From Urechis unicinctus (taxonomy: Eukaryota > Annelida > Polychaeta > Xenopneusta > Urechidae): a DNA stretch of 64,000 nt. Of this stretch, positions 71 through 32,388 are shown in pieces. The stretch covers positions 2,578,797 through 2,642,796 of the forward strand of contig CM067357.1 of NCBI GenBank assembly GCA_034190875.2, written 5' to 3'. Made by a program: the position numbers and the translations under genes. Position 1 is the stretch's first letter. The number at the start of each line of letters is the position of its first letter. The notes beneath the pieces were generated by a model. It ran no database searches and was not told the origin of the DNA. It saw nothing but the letters and a program-made list of their open reading frames with translations.

Positions 71-473
71 TCGCCCTACTATCCCACTCCCTACTTATCC
101 CTCGCCCTACTCATCCCTCGCCCTACTCATCCCTCGCCCTACTCCTCCCTCGCCCTACTCATCTCACTCCCTACTCATCCCTCGCCCTACTTATCCCACT
201 CCCTACTTATCCCTCCCTACTCATCTCACGCCCTACTCATCCCTCGCCCTACTCATCCCTCGCCCTACTCATCCCTCGCCCTACTTATCCCACTCCCTAC
301 TTATCCCTCGCCCTACTCGTCTCACGCCCTACTCATCCCTCGCCCTACTCATCCCACTCCCTACTCATCCCTCGCCCGACTCATCCCTCGCCCTACTCAT
401 CCCTCGCCCTACACATTCCTCGCCTTACTAAACCCTCGCCCTACTCATTCCTCGCCCTACTCATCCCTTGCCC
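71..473. repeat. 16-bp minisatellite
   Basis: Tandem copies of a 16-base unit (ctactcat + ccctcgcc) with small variants such as cttatccc and cctactcatctc. A 15-base C tract follows at 475-489. Because 16 is not a multiple of three, the long open frame across it cycles through all three codon phases of the repeat; it looks like a repeat by-product and not a gene. Confidence 0.93.
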
Positions 474-549
474 ACCCCCCCCCCCCCCCTTACACCCTAC
501 TCATCTCACGGCTGGCCTTTTGACAGAGTCGCAGGTCAAGATAAAGTAA

Positions 550-3363
550 ATGCTAGAGTTATAACAATATGATGGTAGGATGATGGTAGGATGTCAATGA
601 TGTAGGCGTAATTTTTCTGGCTATGGTTCTATTTTCAGCCGTTGTAATCTCTTCCCTCTACTTCTCCAATCGTTGCCGTTCATACTCGAGTCAGCTTTGA
701 AACCTTGTTGCGATGTTTGGTGGCGTTTATCCTCTAATGACCTCTAGCATTTATATACGAACCCTATATATTTACTGATTTTACCTCCGCATTTTAAATC
801 CTTTGATCTGACAGCAATCCCCCTAATTGGATTGCGTTGACACTAATACCGGCACACAATGAACTTGGTTGGTATGATCTCAGCCTGCTTTATCCGCATG
901 TACACAATAACGGCATATCAAACGAAGGAAAAGATATGTAATCTGTTAACTATGTAACCAATAATTTGTTTACACTGTTTAACATATTCATTCATGGAGA
1001 ACCCTGTGCTCAGGCGGATTGTTGGATTGCCTCATTCGCATATAAAGAAAATATCCGGCAAATTTAATACCCGAAAAAAACGATATTGAAATTGTCCTAT
1101 CTTCTGCGTGCTTCCCCATTTGTGCTCGGAGATGCCCGGCATGGCATGAACTTTGAACATAAGTATTTGACACCTCTATAGGGCTCTGATGTTGTGTGTT
1201 TTTATATCTGTTATCTTAGATCCTGCAGAAATCAATTTTCACGAAGCTCACACTTATATGACCTCACTTTTGTGTTCGTACCCATTTTGGATCCTAGAAA
1301 ACCAACATGTAACACTTATATAGCCGCTTAAGATTGGATTAAATACTGCTCTCTGTCATGAGCCATATCCTAGCTATGCATTGAACGTGTATTCCTGCGA
1401 GTCCCTTAACAATAACAAATCATTAACCTGTGTAACAATCCATTAGTTGCATAAAACAGATACCTTGCTCGTGAAAGGCTCAGTACATTATATGTAGCGA
1501 GGCTTCAGTGTCAAAAAAGTCAAGAGACTGGATGGCGTTAATTTGAATTCACAAAATGATGAAGATTCTTTAATGATGATGTCCATTATGTAGTTTAAGA
1601 TGTACTATGCTGTGGTGCTAAACCGGTTAAAGATACGGCATCTTTAATTCCCCAATTCTTCTCCATGGGAATCAAAGTTTCAAGACAATGAACGCGCAAG
1701 TTGCAAATGAGCTTTGTTGCAAAAGGCAAAATTGTTACGACTAAAGCATAGGTGTCTTGTATTTACTTCCTGAGACATGAGAACATCAAAACAACTCGAT
1801 GAATCATATATCATCAATGAGAATAGGTGAACATCAATTATCTAACCAATAACAATATTGAGTTGCATTTGCTGGCGATCCCCATTATACAATACCTATG
1901 TTCGGTTGTAGAGATCATATAATGGTCACAAATCCCGCTGTATTAAACAGCGAAAGCCAGTTTTGTGTATATGGAAGAGTATACTTCGTCAATTGAGTTC
2001 TTCAGCTCTGCTCACTTGATTAATGACCAACTGAAACATGCAGTCTGAGCATCATTCCCTTTTTATATGGCACACGATTCACCACAACGTGCATTTTATC
2101 GTTAAGTATCTGGTGATGTGTGCTATGTCGGTATCACCATTAAGGCCATCGAATCACGCCTAGTGATAGGTAGAGACTTTTGAATGACTTTGCTTTACAC
2201 GCGGTAATTCACCCTCATCAGTTAACAAAATCCTTAAAAACAGCTAGCAGGCCCTGTACTAGCACATTTGCAACATCAGTGGTTTGTTCTGTCAGGACAG
2301 AGCAATTACGATTTCAAGATTTAAAACCTAATGAGAATCCTTCGCAAGCGTAACCATCCAAACGTAGTCGAACCTATACTATGACCTGTTTTTTCATATT
2401 ACGTATCCATATCTTTATTTACACAAAGAAAGCATAAATGAAAACCGAACACCTAAATCATATATGGGTACAAATCAACACACAGAAAGCATAACATTTA
2501 CCAATACGGCCCAAAGAAACCAATGTTCCCGCTTCATTCGATCAAATTGAAGCAGGGCAAGTCTCACATTTGTTTGTTGATAAAGTCAAGGTAAATACGA
2601 AAACTCAATATTCAAGGGTATCAATGGGAGGTCTAATTTAATACTCACAGAGCAATATATTCCCCGTTTGTGCGTTGATTCGTGTTGAGCACCGTGTTAA
2701 TATGGCATTTGCATTAACTGACACAGTCACGATGTGAGCTTTGGAAAATTACTTTGTTACGACAAATTCCCTTCGTCTTTCGCATTGAGCGTTCGTGCTG
2801 TTGTGTACTATTGATCTCATCTTCAGTCTTTTATAATTGAAAGACAGCAGAAGGGTGTCCGGACATTGTAAGATCGACGACTACAGCTAGTAAGTTCTGT
2901 AGCCACCTTTGCCTAGAGCTCGAGTGGTTATAATGGAATGGAGCACTAAATGTGTGAGACACAAAACTGTCTCGGCTGGCTGTGAGAAAAGGCAGAGCGG
3001 AGATGCAAGCGTGTGGGAGATAACGATTGTGACGATATTGCATCTTATGCATTGGTCAGATTGTTAGTAGTAGCTGTGGGTACGTGCATTTGGATCATTC
3101 CGTTTCTAGAAAGTCTCTGTACTTCTATGTGGAGCTGCCATAATAGTGCTCGGTGTTTAATTGTTTCAATAGCAGTCAATGTTGAACATTAACCAAAATT
3201 TGAGTTTTGCTCATGTTGCAGCTACGCACGTTTATATGCTTTAATAACACCATGACCGAGAATTACACACTAAATGTTTCACATGATCGCACTGGTTCGA
3301 ATAAAACAACCCAACCGTCAATAATCAATTATCTATAATTAGTTAGTGTTACGCGTTATAATT
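550..3363. other. intergenic, nothing recognised
   Basis: AT-rich DNA with short chance open frames on both strands. I see no domain, RNA gene or clear repeat here. Confidence 0.6.
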
Positions 3364-3973
3364 TTAACACAGAGAGCTGTTATGTACTACACCGAGGTCA
3401 GGCTGAGTAGTGTATGAGTCATTAGCAGACCTCTTGCACACGTAGCCGAGTGTACTTGCACAGGTAATGTCAGCCAACCCATAATCAGCAGCCAGCATCA
3501 AGCAGTGCTCCGCGCCGTTGTGAGGTTCCCCTGGACCCCAGCCTGCGTAACCGTCATCTAATCGGGTGATAACCGGGTTGGCCCACAGCCAGCATCCCTC
3601 ATGGTGTTCACTGTTTCCTGATATGGAAACTTGCTGTAAATACACCATAAACCACTGTATATTTTATACGTTCCTGAAATAAACATTTACCATGCTAGTC
3701 ACTGTCATGGCATCAAATTATTTAACATTCAGGTGTATTACCGAAATATATCTTATCTGTCATATTGGAAACTCACGTGTGTTCCTAGAAGTAACCCCCA
3801 GTTGTTCAGCAGACTCTGCTCCTCGGCACTTGTGATGCTGGCCAGATAAAAACCCTTACCGAAGTGAGGACACGATTCGCGACTAGTGTGCCAACTGACA
3901 GGAGTCTTACACACGATGTAGGAGAACTCCTGTGCGTCCAGAACGGCTATTTCACATCTCGGCATAGACACAT
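3364..3973 (-). CDS. C-type lectin domain, two exons (3' end of gene)
   Basis: Two exons encode one C-type lectin-like domain. Exon 1 (3973-3777) follows a pyrimidine-rich acceptor and ends at a GTGAGT donor (3776-3771). Exon 2 (3633-3364) follows TTTACAG and ends in TAA. The 143-base intron is phase 0, so the domain joins in frame. Exon 1 gives the N half (VSWHTSRESC, then FYLASITSAEEQSLLNNW). Exon 2 gives the C half (GCWLWANP, GWGPGEPHNG, EHCLML, LADITCASTLGYVCK). The four structural cysteines (SC, EHC, ITC, YVC) are present. The usual EPN sugar-binding triplet reads EPHN and the WND triplet reads LAD, so classical calcium-dependent sugar binding may be lost. No signal peptide exon was found upstream. 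The first exon appears to start in phase 1, usual for shuffled lectin exons. Secretion and a recognition role are inferred from the family. Confidence 0.8.
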
Positions 3974-3977
3974 CTAG

Positions 3978-6784
3978 AGCGACAAGGAATAAAGCATTAT
4001 TATGGTGATTAACATAAGAACATTTCCAGCAGGTATCTATTACATATTTGCTGATGATAATATGACTCGACAGTCATGACATGCCCTTTAGTATGTCTAA
4101 TCAAGTGGCTTTAGGGTGACCACACTCGCACAATATGTGGTCAGGGTAGGTGCTTACATGGTGGCATTTAGAAGCCAATAGAAAGTTAGCACTAATAGAG
4201 CCCATCTCTGTGCCGGTATTTATCGATCCGCACAGAGAGACTTGCATATGGATTGTCGACAACTCGCTCGAACAATTAAGCATCTATGTTGTTGACGGCA
4301 TTTGAGAAAGATGGCAAAAAGCGTGACATGGCCACATTAATGTTAATCTTTATTCAATTGCTGGATCAATTCAGCAACTGAAAATATAAAGTGACATGGT
4401 GAGTATGGTTCTGTACCAAAAGATTGAATAGCAAAGTTATTATCCCAGCTGTGGCACTTTTGAGTTCAGAGAAATCAGCGAGCCATGCCTTTATTCAGGC
4501 TTTCCGTTGAAATGGACAAACTTTTGATAGATCGTGCTGCCGATTAATCTGATATCATTAATGTTGCCAGCTGTCAGACATATTCGGACTGAGCCTCTCA
4601 CAATTAGTACGTAAACATTTAAATAACTGAAATGACCTCAAAGTCAAAACTCAAGAATATAAATATCTGCACCCTTACTGTTGCCAATGAACAAAAGATT
4701 GTGAAGACAGAACACATGGCCTATCTCTGTGGCATGTTTGCGAGGAATGGATGGCATTCAGCAATGCAAAATGGAAGCGTCCTGCTAGATATATTAAGTG
4801 TCAGTGTGAATTTGTTACCATGCCAACATCAATGTATTAAATTAGGTTTTTATTATAATTTTATTTGATACTTACAATTGTGCTGTGAGTCAGTCAGTGA
4901 TCAGATCAGCGAGCGCCTTACAACTTATACTATTGGGTAGTGAAATGCAGATAGTCGTCTAGTGTTTCGAATGGCAACAAATAGTGATATAGATGTTGTT
5001 GATAAGCGATGGCATATTATGGTAGCAGTCTGTACTGACAGAGTTGGTCATCTGACCAGTAATTTTGGCCACTTATACTCATAATAATAATCTATTTATC
5101 AATTGATAATCTTACTCAAGGCAACTTTGGATATGAATTGGAAAATCGTTATATATGCGATACGATGTAGCTGTCAGTAAATATCTTTAATGCGAATGGA
5201 CGGATTCGGTGAATAAGTTACGTCCACTGAGCAATAATATTGATTAACAAAAGATATGAGTATTTTGAACACATGGTGTTTATTGTATTCAAGGCAAAGA
5301 TTGCTCTCCAATAGCAGATGTCTGCTGAAACGGACATAAGACTCGATTCAACTGCTTCAGCAACATACAATCTACGAAATTGGCATAACACTCTGGAAAA
5401 TATACACATCTAAAAGTGGCAGTCGATCAAATTCGAGCTCAAATATATTCTGTACATGCTTCCTAGTTGTCATTACCTTTACAAATACCTTTATCATGTT
5501 ATCACCAACGCCTTCGCAATTATCACGTCATCACCATTCGTCAATTTCATCATTAAGATAATACCTAAAATATTGCCGGACAAGATTTACTAGGCTCTCT
5601 CAAACTGACAAGCTACTGGATCAATCCAAACATTTACAGGGCACTGCATTGATATTTATGTTTCCATGTCAGTCCATGTGTGACGATTTGGCTTACAACA
5701 ATTTTTCTTAGCCATATTTGCTAACCTTGCAATGTCCAAACACATACACTTTCGGTTCTATAAATAATGTGATAAGGAGTGTTATATAATGATGAATATT
5801 ACGAGCAACTGGTGTGACTGCACGAACATTTGTTTCGTGCTGCTTGTTAACACTGGAACTGTAGTTTGTGGCATTTTAGATAAATTCAACTCGGTGTTGA
5901 ACATTTCATAAGCACGCATTACCAATTGGCAGCAACATATGAGAACATTATATATTATGGTGCTGAACAAATGGAATGCTGAAGAATATCGTATTTATCT
6001 TAACAGTTCCGTCGCGTAACGAATCTTAATTGAACTATGACGCATATTATCGATGCAGCCGATATCAGGCATCTATTGATACATGCTAATGCTATATCAA
6101 TGCGGTAGTAGAGCAGCTTCTTAAAAGTAATCTCAACATACTTGTTGTGTCCTTACGCCACTGGTTGGAACCGATGCTGAAGCATACGAAAATTAGTTGA
6201 ATGCTAACGCCATTGAATTCGCATGACATATAAACCTACATTTAAGTCTAGGTTACGGTGCGGAGATTTGACTATTCCCTGGAGATGATTTACCCTGCGA
6301 TGTTTGATAACGGTGGCTCTGCTTATTATTGTCAAAGGATGTGTGATCAAATGGTGCAGGCACATCCGATCTAAAATGTATGCCGAACACGTAGTCCAAA
6401 AGACTCATTGATTTTAAACTGGTTACTTTATTCATTACAACATAATCCCGAGGAGCATGTTATTTCTCAGGCAATATTGTTTCAGGCAACCAAATAGTTA
6501 TTTCATCATAATACATATTGATCTTGGAAATAGTAAGGATGACTAAATTTTAAATTCTTAAAGAACGAAATGACGCACTCCTTGACAGTGCAAATATAGA
6601 TCAACATTATAATCATTTGACAGTGATAGCACATACAAAACTTATATTCGTTCTTAAATGCTCCGCTCCCATGCTCGATTATTCCGCAGCAACATTACCC
6701 AGATAACACGATCCATTGATAGACAGAATAGAATATGTCTCAGTCATGGTCTTTATAACAATATCATAAACGGGTACCAATACT
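3978..6784. other. intergenic, nothing recognised
   Basis: AT-rich, with only short chance open frames. A 60-codon cysteine-bearing frame at 4283-4101 (minus) lies upstream of the lectin exons, but I could not match it to a domain or give it splice sites. Confidence 0.5.
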
Positions 6785-12820: not shown

Positions 12821-13122
12821 TTAACATTGACCAGATGTCGTTTGCTTGCAATTTATTAACAAACACTATATGATTTAAGACAGGAATATTTACAATTATA
12901 ACAAACTTATAGCCAATACGTACCCAGTGGGCACAACACGTGGAATCCACGTGGAAATCATGTGGATTTTTGGTGAATTGGTGGATCCACGTGTTTTCAC
13001 GTGATATCCACGTGGATTCCACGAGTATTAATCACGTGGAATTGACGTGTCAAAAACACGTGGAAAAGACGTGTATTTTAGGACCCATTTGTAAATTATT
13101 ATTTAAATATTCTTTTTTTCAG

Positions 13123-13275
13123 TTTATACCAGAAATATGGCCATGTGTTAACCTGACAGCCCCAGCTAGGCTTGTGCTAGATATGCCAAGATATAGTGGG
13201 TTTCACAACTTTTGGTGCTATCGATCTATGAGCTCTGGGGATGATGACTTTGGCTTTTGGCTTTCATCTGCTTAG
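13123..13275 (+). other. possible exon inside the transposon
   Basis: A pyrimidine-rich acceptor (ttctttttttcag, ending at 13122) is followed by 50 open codons ending in TAG just before the SINE. No domain was recognised. It may be an exon cut short by the SINE insertion or chance. Confidence 0.25.
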
Positions 13276-13425
13276 TTACTATCGTGACAGGGGTCTCCTG
13301 GAATAATGAGTCGAAATTCAGGTGAGATACTCTCCAAACGTAGGCGAGGTTCGAACCCGTGACCTGCTGGTCCGTGGTGGAGACCCCACAGGGGGTCAAC
13401 CGCTAACCGCTGATTGGCGCGATTT
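13270..13425 (-). mobile_element. tRNA-derived SINE
   Basis: On the minus strand a tRNA-like head has a B box GGTTCGAACC near 13356-13347, preceded by an A-box-like stretch (ggttagcggttga) near 13410. A body runs to about 13270 (tttggagagtatctcacctgaa and onward). This order and spacing mark an RNA polymerase III promoter of a tRNA-derived SINE. It is nested in the DNA transposon. Confidence 0.7.
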
Positions 13426-13770
13426 GCTGCAGTTTTGGAAAGTTGAGAATTCATTTGCTATATTTTTGACAGTTTCTAAGTTTACAAGTGAGTTATATTC
13501 AAATGTTATTCTTTCAATGAAAATAAGTTTACTCAAGTAGCTGTACAAAAACTGCTTGCCGTGTATAATGTCTTCATGGTTTATGATTTTATGCTCATTG
13601 GTGCATGAAACCTGTATTATCGCTCTCAGCAAAGTGCCAGCCGTTGCAGCTAGTTAGTTGCGCAGCGGAAAGGCTGTAGGCACGCCTCGTGGTTTTTTGG
13701 AGGCTTGCTCCTTAATACACCACAACCATCTTATACACACGCCATGGTTCATCTGTTGACTGTTCCTCCA

Positions 13771-13887
13771 TCTCACAGTCATCGTTCATCTGTCAGTCCA
13801 TCTCACAGTCATCGTTCATCTGTCAGTCCATCTCACAGGCATCGTTCATCAGTCAGTCCATCTCAGTCATCGTTCATCTGTCAATCC
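13771..13887 (+). repeat. 30-bp minisatellite, about 4 units
   Basis: Units at 13771, 13801 and 13831 are 30 bases each, with a 27-base fourth unit. Being a multiple of three it keeps one frame open and would encode a decapeptide repeat (SHSHRSSVSP). Whether it is translated is unknown. Confidence 0.85.
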
Positions 13888-14126
13888 GTTCCACACGGTC
13901 GTCATCGCTCATTTGACACTCAGTCCCACAGTCATGGCTCATCTGTCACTCATTCTAACAGTCGTTGGTTGAGCAATGATGGTTTTCCTTTAACATAAGT
14001 GCACATTTGTGAATATTTTCTTTAAATATTTTCTCTGTTTTAATGCTGCTATTGAGAAAGGTATTATTTATGAGTTTGTAGTCAGCAGCATAGTAATTGA
14101 ACACTGCATAATTTGTTTGTGCACAG

Positions 14127-14914
14127 GTTTTCAGGAGAGCTGCCTCTCCTGCCTCTGCAAATCAGGGATATATTGAACAGGCAGGAGAGGAGAGAGCTGG
14201 CCGATAGTGGCAAAATGCTTCCTGAAGCTGTGCAGATGAACAGCACTGATGAGCAGTTTATGGACAACCAGAGAAAGAATTTGTGGGTATGTAAAATTGC
14301 AGTTTTTTTAAGGAGGAGTGGACATTAGATCTAATAAACAGCAATGAAATATTTTCCAAATGTCACATTTTTGTGTCAGTTTCAGAAGTGTATGAAAATC
14401 ATTGTGCAGTGTCCGGGATACGATGAACGATTTGACAAGCAGGTGCGATTCTCTATGTATATGTATATGATGTAAATCCATGATCCAAACAACTTGCACT
14501 TATGCATTTTGTCTGAATTGGCAATGTTTAAGAAATTTTCATGCACCAATTGTATTCATTCAGACATATTGCTTGCAGATTAATCACTAATTCCCTGCAG
14601 TGCAAGCTTAACATGAACAGGTCAGGTGACAAAGCCAGCTTTGAGAAAATGGCACTTTGCAAATTAATTGTCGGTAGGTTCACCATTGGCTAATTACTTG
14701 GAAGTCCAGGATAGTTTTTTATTTTAATGATACACAATAAATAATGAAAGTCAGTTGTACGATGTATGAAATTAGATAGCTTATATTGTCCTCTTTGTAC
14801 TGTGCAGAAAGTGTAGTGAAGAGTCATGGGTTCACCGAGGCTGCTGTTAATGTCTTTCTAGCCAACCGACTGAGGAATGCACCCAAGAGAAGTTTAAATA
14901 TTGCCTATTGGTAA
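14127..14914 (+). CDS. four-exon 3' end of an unrecognised gene inside the transposon
   Basis: Exons 14127-14286, 14380-14442, 14601-14673 and 14808-14914 are each bounded by AG and GT. Donors are GTATGT, GTGCGA and GTAGGT; acceptors are gcacag, tgtcag, ccctgcag and gtgcag. The phases (0, 0, then a 1+2 split codon) join without a stop and end at TAA 14912-14914, giving about 133 residues. The protein is charged and helical-looking, with segments such as QERRELADSGKMLPEAVQ, MNRSGDKASFEKMALCK and SHGFTEAAVNVFLANRLRNA. I do not recognise the family; no BEN, THAP or DDE signature is clear. The first exon starts in phase, so upstream exons should exist. Its place between the inverted repeats suggests it belongs to the transposon or was captured by it. 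Confidence 0.62.
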
Positions 14915-15768
14915 TGATTGTTGATTTACTCACACATTTATATTTTTCATAGATTTGACTAGATCGTTTACTTAAAGAGCCACTTACATGCAAAATTCAA
15001 ATTTGTGTTGTCATCTAATTATGAAGATGATTTTGTGACATTTTGACAACAGTATGACTGAGATGTCATAACTGGTTGCCGAGATATTACCGATCAAACT
15101 CGCAGACTTTCCTGTATGAAGTCATCAAACTCATTCACTCACTTTCGTTTAGTGGTTTACTGATGAAAGCCATCCTAGACGAATTTGACAGATTTGTGTC
15201 AATTAGGTGATGTCACCCAGAAAGTCACTTAAAAATTATCATCAAAATGCGATAACAAAAATTCGGTTTTGCATTTCAGTGGCCTTTTAAGTACATTTTA
15301 TAATTTGCATTTTATTAGGGTGAAAGTAAATCAAGACATATCTGTGTAGATTCATGATGCTCATGCATGTAGTGACTGGTTTAATGTGTTTCATGAACAA
15401 ACCTGCCTTTTTCCACTAATTTGTTGCCTTTGTATGTTGATATTTGCTCGTAATGTTTAAAACATGTTTAATATTGTTATTTGTGATCATGTAGAACTTA
15501 TAGTTGGATATTTCTGAGAAATAAATGTACTTGGTTCAATGATCTTGTGAAATATATTAAAAAACAAAAAAAATACTAAAGAGGAAGTAAAAACCACCTG
15601 AATACAGATATTTTGTATCGTTGAATTTAGGTGGAAGAGCACACGTGTTTTCCACGTGTCCATATCCACGTGAATTCAACTTGCCTTTTACGCGTATTAT
15701 CTAAGTGAATTACACCAGTTTCTCCACGTATTTTCCACGTGGATTCCACGTATTGTGCCCACTGGGTA

Positions 15769-28800: not shown

Positions 28801-29559
28801 CAAAAGGGCACCATTTAATAAGATAAAAAACTTCACCCTTTTTTAACTGCATACTGAAATTTGTCAAAAAAGTATACCTATGTCGTGGCCATTTGATAAA
28901 ATTGAGAAAATGATACATTTGTTTCCACCGAAATATTTCGTACGTAAATATTATTATTTTTTGGCCAATTTCTTTAGATTTTATATGATCATAAACATTA
29001 GAATGTCATCTTGTCATTAACCAAACAATGAAAAAGATGCGAGTAACGATTATGAACTGATTTAGAGAATTCAAAACGGAGCGAGTCTCGATAAGTCCAA
29101 AATGCTCGCCTAGAATTTTCACGTATTGCTCCACAAACACACCTTTTTTATGGCTCAAATGGAGTTAAATGCAGAAACTAGGGCAATATTATTGAAATTC
29201 AATACGTTAGCTCTCATGTGATGTATCATTCGTCCATGTATCTTAAATATAAATGCCCGTCAGAGCAAGTTGGAAATAACATTGAGGCACAAGTGCAACC
29301 ACCTGCGGCGAGGTTCGGCTGACACCCCTATCATTGTATCACGTTGAAATTATGCATCATGATAGGTATACTCTAGACGGTGGTATGTGTAAATAGCATC
29401 CTACTCATCATATATAATGCTAAACTAATCACTTAACCCAGGTTCTAATACCTGAGGCACAACCTTGGCCGTATAAGCTATTCGTATCTCTTTGCCACCA
29501 TCTTGGTCAACTAGAATATGCTTCTACCAACTTGCACTGGCTTTCTTCTGCTATAGGAT

Positions 29560-32388
29560 ATCTAACTAAGGTGTGTAGGATAATCTCTTTCAGGTTAGCA
29601 ATAAGTTACACAGCTGTCAGCTGTTTTCTTTTGGCATCTTCTTTCTTTGACAGACTGAACAGGGAATTGCTAGTTGTCTCATCAAACACCCCATCGTTCC
29701 ATGATCCTGACTTGTAATCTATTCCATAGTTTTTTTATTGGTTAGCTAATGAAAGCTTTGCATGCAATTGTAGAGATGCTTGGGTTGGCTTGGCCATCAT
29801 CAGATGATTCATCAATCCAATCACACTTTTATTAAGTTTTTAGAACCAAGATTGTTTTTGAGCGTAATTCAGCAGCTTCTATCTCTGAGAGAGCAGTGTA
29901 GTGGCCACCTTACAGCTACAAATAGTCCTCGAAAAGATGCTGACAAGTTGCTGACATTGCAGGGAGAAGAACAGAAAGGGGAGTTTGGGTCACAGAATCA
30001 TCTTTTTTGGGCTCATTGAGGGAATGGAATACTGCATCTTACGAAAGTCTTATCCCTGTAAAAGGCAAAATATTCCCACTCATGAATCCCTCTGTTTTGA
30101 GTGGCGTTGCTAATGAATGTTGTCAGTTTGGTGATTCATATCAAGTATGATTTGTCTTCCAAAAGCACCACTACGGTGAAGTCACAATTTTACAAATGCC
30201 CCTGTAAGATACTGAGAAACTTTCAGGTCATGAAGAACAACCTTAAAACTCTGTTCATTGGGCTGTATGATTCTGGGAACTCCACCATATGTTTCAGGAG
30301 AATATCAAACCCACTAGCTTGGGAGAACAGAAAATTTAAATGACTTCCGCCGTATGGTGTGATAAAAAGAAAAATACGACACATTTCATACAAAAATCTG
30401 CTAACTTTTCTTCATCAAAGGGTACACTGATAATATGGAAGCCTCCTATTGTGTACAACACAATGTCACAATTCTGTACACCATGAATTCCCATCTGTCC
30501 CTGCACTTGAGTGTAATAAGCATTGTTGTGCTTGAGGTGGAGAAGCTGTGCATCTTTCAATTAACCATAGTGCATAAAGAACAGGAACATTTCTCTTTCT
30601 TTGTCCCAATCAAGAGCTGAAGTGGTCACGGGTAAATTGTCTTCCATTATTTTAGAAATGAGCACATACGGGTCAGTATCTGGTTTGTTCATGATGGTTG
30701 GATCACAGAGGCTGTGATTCGTCCTAGCCTCATTGCTTGCCAGGCTGAGTTATCGGCTTGCCCTTAGTATCTGAATCAATAAGTTCAATATCAGCAGGGG
30801 CGTATTTGATTAATCAGACAAAATCATCTGCAGTGCAGGCAACTGTGGTAGCTCCCGGTATGGCTTGAGCAGACTGTATGATGTGTCCGACAAACTCCTT
30901 TGCTCTATCCAGCACACCCAGGAAGAGGCATGTTGGCTCTTGCTCTGGAGACTGATATGAAGGTTGAATTGGGTCTTTCGAGTAGTTCAAGGACTTGAGC
31001 GTGAGCATTGTTCTGTTAAACAGAAAGAATCAATGAAGTGACTTCATTCTGTTTGCATACCCCCAGTTGTCTATCTTGTACAATCACTTCTATAAATATT
31101 CATTATTTATTCAGCTTCATTTTAGCATATGTTCAATAAACTGAAGCATTTCAGTTAAGTCCAAGTTTAACTCGATCTTGATGTCGGTAATCCGTCGTTG
31201 TAACCCCTCTATCCTTCGAAAAACTCCGCAGTTGTTCGACTTTACAACGCGTTGTTGTTAACATTAACCTCTTTGTTTGTACCGGGGTCATGTGCCTGGT
31301 TACGCAAGGTGCGCTGTTGTGCATGCTTGCATGCGTAATTGGGGTTACCGGGAAATAGACTATTGATTGACATGATTGGCTAAATTGATGTGGGTGGAGA
31401 CAGATAAACAATTGCATGAGTTCTCAAGTAATGACTTCTCGCTTTGAGCTAGATCATCCCAATTGGCAAGTAAAGAGGGGAGAGCATCCCTTTGATCATT
31501 CTCTTAGAGTTTGTTGAATTAAATGTCTGTTGATGCATGGACTGACATATAAACCAACCATTCATTTTGAGTGGCATCTGCGGCATCATCAAGATCTTGA
31601 AGTATTTCTCTATTCACATTAAAGGTGTCCAGTGCATTCATAATCATAGTTTCAATGCCCCGCAAACCCAGCACTCAAAGATTCACTTTTTCATCAGCAG
31701 TCTAATACCCCATGAACTTCTGGCCAAATTTGCTGGTTTCATCAGCCAACCGTGTAATTATTTCGTCTTTACTGAAAACTTCCCCTTGTTGGTTTCATGT
31801 CAGAACAAGTCTTTCTTGATTGATCTGGGAAACAGTTGACCTTGTGGGCAATTTAGAAGCTGGTCATTCCAAAGTCATGTTTTGCCACAGGCGGATCAGA
31901 CAGTAAAAGAAAAGTACCGGATAACAAGAGACGGCAACAATAACTATGGTTATTTGTTCATTTACATAACTAACAATGAGTGTACTACATTTCGTCATGA
32001 TTTTGGAGGATAAATATTAGAATAATCATGTCTTGGGGCTGCATCTTCATCTGGTTCCCGAGTCTTCTTTAGCAACATTGTCTAGGCAATGGTGATGGTG
32101 TGGTCCACTGGCTTTACAAAGTGGAAGGACTGGGTGCCTGACAGCAGCTCTGTCCAGCCAGTTGAGGGGTTATTCCTTAATTTCCTCCTTTGAAAGCAAA
32201 GATGATTGACTGTTTCCAACAACTTCTCTGCCTTGAAAGACAGCCCGCCAAACCGGATGCTTAACTTCCCCTCCAATATCATCAATGGGTACTTTACCAT
32301 AAAGTAGCTTTGCACTGGAAGTTCTGCTCATGAAGAGGAATATTGGCAAAGTTCCCTCCTCGTTCCAAAGGTGAAAAACATATTTCAC
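29560..32388 (-). pseudogene. decayed minus-strand coding region around the YqaJ fragment
   Basis: Beyond the YqaJ piece, several minus-strand stretches read as coding DNA broken by stops. About 31890-31540 contains DEIITRLADETSKFGQKFMG and LDTFNVNREILQDLDDAAD. About 31008-30730 contains FLGVLDRAKEFVGHIIQSA. About 29700-29560 contains DETTSNSLFSLSKKEDAKRK. Frames in 32388-32082 are also protein-like. They probably derive from one or more old genes or elements now degraded. Limits are approximate and a single origin is inference. Confidence 0.35.
30336..30725 (-). pseudogene. YqaJ-type (lambda-exonuclease-like) nuclease fragment
   Basis: The minus strand carries NNAYYTQVQGQMGIHGVQNC and then CDIVLYT and FDEEKLADF, the C-terminal signature of YqaJ/lambda-exonuclease folds (Y-x2-Q-x-QGQ, CD-hydrophobic). 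Upstream in a connected frame are DPYVLISKIMEDNLPVTTSA and LDWDKERE, which resemble the start of this domain. A stop at about 30563 and the absence of the central catalytic part (the usual SPDG and EVKCP motifs) show an internal deletion. YqaJ domains occur in multi-copy, element-associated genes of invertebrates. The fragment is not functional. Confidence 0.7.

Follow-up and report, generated by a model that had tools for sequence, protein, structure and literature searches.

The locus considered here raises the question of what a multi-exon gene is doing inside a DNA transposon, and whether such a gene drives the movement of the element that carries it, was taken from the host, or is simply carried along. 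It lies in a stretch of 64,000 nucleotides from the annelid Urechis unicinctus (GenBank assembly GCA_034190875.2, contig CM067357.1, positions 2,578,797 to 2,642,796 of the forward strand), here called the window, to which all coordinates refer unless another locus is named. The initial annotation had described, at 14127-14914, a spliced gene of unknown family carried inside a transposon, which would be either autonomous with an undescribed protein or the bearer of a captured host gene. We find that the spliced gene piece is real and that it lies inside a real, young and abundant non-autonomous transposon. Probably, this is a high-copy family with terminal inverted repeats (TIRs) in which the exons are passengers, moved by a transposase acting in trans.

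The transposon occupies 12923-15766 of the window (2844 bp), starts with CCCAGTGGGCACAACACGTGG and is bounded by a duplicated TA, so that the features of a TIR DNA transposon, namely inverted ends, a target-site duplication and dispersed copies, are all present (Table 1). Its TIR arms and the TA duplication enclose 14127-14914, and the gene piece is thus carried inside the transposon, as had been proposed. Given in short form, the ends of the family are CCCAGTGGGCA, with termini CCC..GGG. Among the fetched copies, 30 distinct flank pairs could be compared; 29 of them show a 2-bp target duplication and the remaining one a 3-bp match, and the dinucleotides involved (n = 29) were AA/TT in 12 cases, TA in 7, AT in 5 and others in 5. 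When the 29 target sites are pooled on both strands, a palindromic preference is suggested, roughly AGWNNNWWNNNWCT. The subterminal regions are marked by short repeats: ACGTG/CACGT occurs 26 times in the two ends and 0 times in the middle of the element, with an expectation from mononucleotide shuffles of 0.48 on average and of 5 at most in 1000 shuffles. The minisatellite upstream of the exons accounts for many of the differences in length, as judged from the indels among 18 copies, and the weak candidate exon near the left end gave no Pfam match in the version found in the copies.

Table 1. Features of the transposon and of the spliced gene piece that it carries (positions in the window)
Feature	Position	Strand	Basis or remark
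Left target-site duplication TA	12921..12922		sequence; same as 15767-15768
Left TIR	12923..12966	+	starts CCCAGTGGGCACAACACGTGG; 46-nt arms including TA, 91% complementary
Left subterminal region, dense CACGTG/ACGTGG repeats	12923..13092		motif count vs shuffles
Weak candidate exon	13123..13275	+	acceptor TTTTTTTCAG; open frame, 50 residues to stop
30-bp minisatellite, about 6.5 units	13767..13963	+	TRF
Exon 1	14127..14286 (alternative acceptor, start 14135)	+	donor GTATGT
Exon 2	14380..14442 (alternative start 14386)	+	donor GTGCGA
Exon 3	14601..14673	+	donor GTAGGT
Exon 4, stop TAA at 14912-14914	14808..14914	+	splice site and frame
Probable 3' untranslated region	14915..15525	+	G+C 0.321; AATAAA at 15520
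Right subterminal CACGTG repeats and right TIR	15610..15766		ends ..TGTGCCCACTGGG
Right target-site duplication TA	15767..15768		sequence

A tRNA-derived SINE, suspected within the element from a B-box-like motif, was dropped: ARAGORN found no tRNA in the element, Rfam gave no match at its gathering score, and a second copy was seen neither in the rest of the window nor in the locus flanks, which were masked at more than 85% identity, so that only weaker copies could show there, and which held only a stretch of L010 belonging to an element copy. Locus L010 is family-like at about 926-1315, with 37 and 32 small gaps and 6 and 2 substitutions in two stretches, and this gap-rich part is perhaps poorly polished assembly. 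Elsewhere in the window, the region 32400-61060 contains several units resembling non-LTR retrotransposons, recurring at intervals of about 5.8 and 8.6 kb, with endonuclease, reverse transcriptase and RNase H-like frames that were named by eye.

The abundance of the family was assessed in the whole genome (1.19 Gb in 926 contigs). Exact TIR 29-mers were found 226 times in forward and 228 times in reverse orientation, with 0 occurrences of the reversed-pattern control, and exact exon-4 30-mers 186 times, again with 0 in the control; in a DNA search, the best 40 of 510 candidates were scored and all 40, the window included, were at 95-100% identity. The counts of pairs and distances rest on 100 TIR places listed and on the stretch common to the TIR and exon-4 lists. 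Among the 100 TIR places listed, 34 pairs were recognized and 32 places had no partner, so the pairs are a subset of the family; of the pairs listed, 30 measure 2.2-3.2 kb, three 3.86-3.98 kb (L027 was read) and one 8.07 kb. A check of whether other copies carry the same gene was positive: exon evidence by coordinates was present in 28 of these 34 pairs, and among the other six the one that was read, the 8-kb pair, contains a diverged exon 1. In the other direction, 37 of the 40 exon-4 places listed on the shared stretch have a TIR within 3.5 kb, and the one read of the remaining three is a 3'-truncated copy. Because the exons are found in most TIR pairs and TIRs lie near most exon-4 places, the exon piece belongs to the amplified unit. 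The first 14 TIR bases without the following bases of the family were found at 4 places (0 for the reversed-pattern control), three of which have further family letters when inspected by eye. Some copies are rearranged or closely related: L063 (C2:33553770-33557912) is a partial tandem duplication with one left TIR and two right TIRs 1686 bp apart, and L015 and L018 (2849 and 3142 bp), about 61 kb apart on C12, have identical flanks and opposite contig orientation.

The gene piece was borne out in its main structural claims, which were four exons with compatible phases and consensus splice sites leading to one product with a stop. The splice borders are GT..AG throughout, the phases run 0, 0, 1, and the exons together form a single frame of 133 residues closing with TAA. 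Their G+C content (0.487, 0.413, 0.411 and 0.430) stands out against the 0.301-0.335 of the introns, the upstream flank and the 3' untranslated region. A simple chain search over 13990-15000, based on crude consensus rules and with dinucleotide shuffles as controls, returned as its best splice chain four exons with 469 nt, which departs from the chain of the initial annotation only in using the donor 14472 instead of 14443 and the acceptor 14564 instead of 14601; the same search on the reverse strand reached 233 nt. That all this is an open frame arisen by chance, with no gene behind it, appears very improbable. The exons had been chosen by eye, they come with neither a start exon nor transcript evidence, and chains of at least 402 nt, the length of the chain first described, were obtained from 7 of 1000 shuffles; none of these 7, however, had four exons, the best chain was equalled (at least 469 nt) by 1 of 300 shuffles in one run and 0 of 1000 in a second, that is, 1 of 1300 in the two runs, and the G+C contrast of the exons does not depend on the frame.

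The claim of a spliced gene at 14127-14914 stands as far as the spliced piece is concerned but not for a whole gene, since exon 1 opens at an acceptor and an upstream exon is needed. Upstream of exon 1 there are 50 possible in-frame start exons, none of which stands out. A start exon at 13934, which would give a hydrophobic N-terminus, is not claimed, as its donor is weak and it is one of the 50 in-frame candidates; the best donor among them belongs to 13306-13321. The product is indeed without a known domain, with no match in the Pfam, NCBIfam or PHROG models, and it has no relatives in IMG/VR, where the exact TIR 22-mer likewise has none. Its match in the PDB to 8vd6 (E 0.004 and 0.003) was set aside as short, low-scoring and lying over repeated segments.

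Whether the product is kept in working order can be judged from the way in which the copies have changed. Of 62 one-piece matches spanning the exons, 41 remained once identical and contained ones had been removed; adding the window and removing the duplicate L030 left 41 rows, two of which are the tandem copies of L063. Loci whose match was not in one piece (L029/L059, L046, L057, L061, L062 and L068) were left out, and the 41 rows therefore lean to less damaged copies. In these rows, the exons diverge from the consensus by 0.79% vs 0.54-0.86% in the other parts; in an earlier count with 28 rows the values were 0.40-1.14% for exons and 0.38-0.62% for introns, and exon divergence was not lower. 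The distinct exon changes in the 41 rows (58 missense, 20 silent and 5 stop) fit neutrality, the numbers expected from the rates that these rows show outside the coding sequence being 60.2, 22.1 and 6.0, respectively. Frame and splice sites are intact in 24 of the 41 rows and broken in 17, with L060 counted as intact because a second indel offsets its 11-bp deletion. Several lesions are common to more than one copy: an 11-bp frame-breaking deletion occurs in 3 rows (two on C4, about 6 kb apart, and one on C3), a stop costing the last six residues is common to 4 rows, and the L065 type, of which one row was read, has a further deletion and an early stop. Among the protein-search matches listed, a 56-residue frame with one TAA is common to 8 rows, of which L065 is the one read, and these 8 are taken as the L065 type. 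There is also a copy type with an exon 1 longer by six codons; the type of the window is without these 18 bp, in frame.

Copy types with a broken frame are found again at distinct loci, and the element can therefore do without the product in cis. The evidence does not support the alternative of the initial annotation, an autonomous element with an undescribed protein: in the copies, leaving any master copy aside, the coding sequence shows no sign of being maintained by selection or of being needed for spread. That the element requires the protein, for autonomous movement or as a helper function, is hence a highly unlikely reading. The intact frame of the consensus, the in-frame nature of the 18-bp deletion, which is one difference between subfamilies, and the frame kept in 24 of the 41 rows would all suit it, but the exons evolve neutrally in the copies and copies with common frame-breaking lesions recur. 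The same 24 intact rows count against regarding the exons as passengers, as they leave room for a rare functional master copy; in a young family many intact frames are expected, and the neutral test covers the copies after amplification and not the master copy.

According to the explanation that we prefer, namely that of passengers moved in trans, the four exons would be the 3' part of a once-coding gene, comprising its last exons, stop, 3' untranslated region and poly(A) signal. This piece would have been fixed in the founder and then copied together with the element ends. A transposase supplied in trans would act on the TIRs and on the CACGTG-rich subterminal repeats, moving the element, and the product would be dispensable in cis for movement and, as far as can be detected, for the host. 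In this account, the element with its ends and duplication, its copy number, the exon structure, the neutral drift of the copies and the recurrence of frame-broken types are observed, whereas we infer that the element moves in trans, that the subterminal repeats take part in this and that the gene once coded for a protein. Within the copies and pairs that were read, no transposase for the element family was found.

The longest of the TIR pairs deserves a separate description. The 8069-bp pair at C1:15020675-15028743 (L068, 5001 bases read) has a transposase-like gene, enclosed on the left and on the right by family-like sequence, and the last exon and stop of this inserted gene precede exon 1 of the family. 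The idea that L068 is the autonomous form, in which the AGTCATGG found on either side would be deletion microhomology, was rejected because the insert has its own inverted ends. The insert is about 4.38 kb long (about 327-4703), its ends TAGGGATGTC..GACATCCCTA adjoin a repeated GTCATGG, a 7-bp duplication, and at 1232-4504 it carries a large transposase-like gene made up of two frames that overlap and of a last exon. For this gene nothing was found above the curated Pfam cut-offs (the best model, Linocin_M18, with E 0.00036, is below its cut-off), no PDB or PHROG match was convincing, and the first piece of the protein has no relatives in IMG/VR or GTDB genomes. A decayed relative of the protein lies on the minus strand of the window at 29371-31860 (47% over 171 residues, with internal stops and a match to the last exon), and another on the minus strand of L065 at 4670-4921 (51% over 84 residues), beyond the right TIR of that copy. 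From its own inverted ends and these protein relatives outside the element, the insert is read as a different transposon, most likely nested in an element copy. The length of the pair exceeds that of a usual copy and the insert together by about 0.7 kb.

For the origin of the gene piece, two accounts fit about equally well: the capture of the end of a host gene, as in Pack-TIR elements, and the internal deletion of an autonomous element. Capture, which the initial annotation had offered as an option and which is possible, would mean that the element took up four exons, the 3' untranslated region and the poly(A) signal from the 3' end of a host gene and was amplified to more than 180 copies, and we give it close to an even chance. 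It would account for the exon-intron structure with its host-like G+C contrast, for the presence of both a stop and AATAAA, and for a product with no match to a transposase or other mobile-element domain; moreover, animal Pack-TIRs have already been described (PMC8277862). However, no parent gene was found among the best 150 of 1315 protein-search candidates, a search in which a diverged parent would not show. All 30 loci cut out after the protein search of the own genome carry element sequence, the odd-looking ones being deletion forms, and, since element copies outrank a diverged parent in such a search, the absence of a parent is not evidence. Furthermore, a gene end just inside the 3' subterminal repeats is equally expected of an autonomous element. 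In the second account, which had been absent from the initial annotation, the exons would be the last exons of an autonomous element's own gene whose middle was lost; we regard it as only slightly less likely than capture. The exons run toward the 3' TIR, the stop is followed by an AATAAA, from which the first CACGTG on the right-hand side is about 115 bp away, and a position near the 3' TIR is the usual one for the end of a transposon gene; the 8-kb pair, in addition, was read for only 5001 of its 8069 bases. Against such a deletion speak the absence of a longer autonomous relative among the 34 TIR pairs listed, the fact that the single 8.07-kb pair most likely holds an unrelated nested transposon, and a product without any transposase-like match.

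These origins differ in what they would mean. It is conceivable, though less likely than not, that the complete 3' end of a host gene was captured, was amplified to more than 180 copies that still have clean introns, and supplies terminal exons when a copy is intronic. Were the piece captured from a host gene, the family would be an unusually multiplied animal Pack-TIR in comparison with the four multicopy cases and one fly family described (PMC8277862), and each intronic copy in the right orientation could be a source of terminal exons that can be spliced and bring a poly(A) signal, which would make effects on host transcripts directly testable. If, instead, it is the end of a lost autonomous gene, the exons would be a handle for finding the transposase of this family. 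Under either origin, the copies are without sign of working as genes, and the piece looks like a passenger rather than a working gene.

Among known systems, the CACTA/EnSpm (CMCT) elements have dense short subterminal repeats, as does the element described here. As characterized in the literature, they also resemble it in their 2-5 bp duplication (2 bp here), but their termini are mostly CA..TG, in place of CCC..GGG, and their transposase has C(2)C and H(3-4)H motifs (PMC12730594). ISL2EU elements, of the PHIS group, share the 2-bp duplication and the AT-rich targets and differ, by their published description, in duplicating AT in A|AT|T, whereas the dinucleotides here are mixed, with AT in 5 of 29; their autonomous members encode a DDE/THAP transposase and a YqaJ nuclease (PMC4482050), and the two frames scanned here, the spliced product and one further candidate frame, gave no Pfam match. 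Tc1/mariner elements are described as duplicating TA in general (PMC10045372), unlike the 7 of 29 cases found here. Judged by these descriptions, the combination of a 2-bp duplication with CCC..GGG ends fits none of the superfamilies compared (ISL2EU, Tc1/mariner and CMCT), and literature searches, including a full-text search for 'cccagtgggca' in which papers were judged by title, returned no described family matching the element. The Pack-TYPE elements of plants are likewise non-autonomous DNA transposons with coding DNA, as their description has it (PMC8903248), and differ in being plant-borne, the element here having 2-bp duplications and no superfamily assigned. The closest described class, on the published account, is that of the animal Pack-TIRs, which have in common with our family a TIR element, a target duplication and gene-derived sequence without a transposase, gene-derived here only as a candidate; the parent locus, which is defining there (PMC8277862), was not found here among the protein-search candidates scored. 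The survey that established them reports 370 cases in 100 reference genomes, of which only four are multicopy (a frog case is shown with three loci), and in addition the fly family Ssk-FB4 with four copies in populations (PMC8277862, Tan et al. 2021), in comparison with the 186 exact exon-4 matches of the family in Urechis unicinctus.
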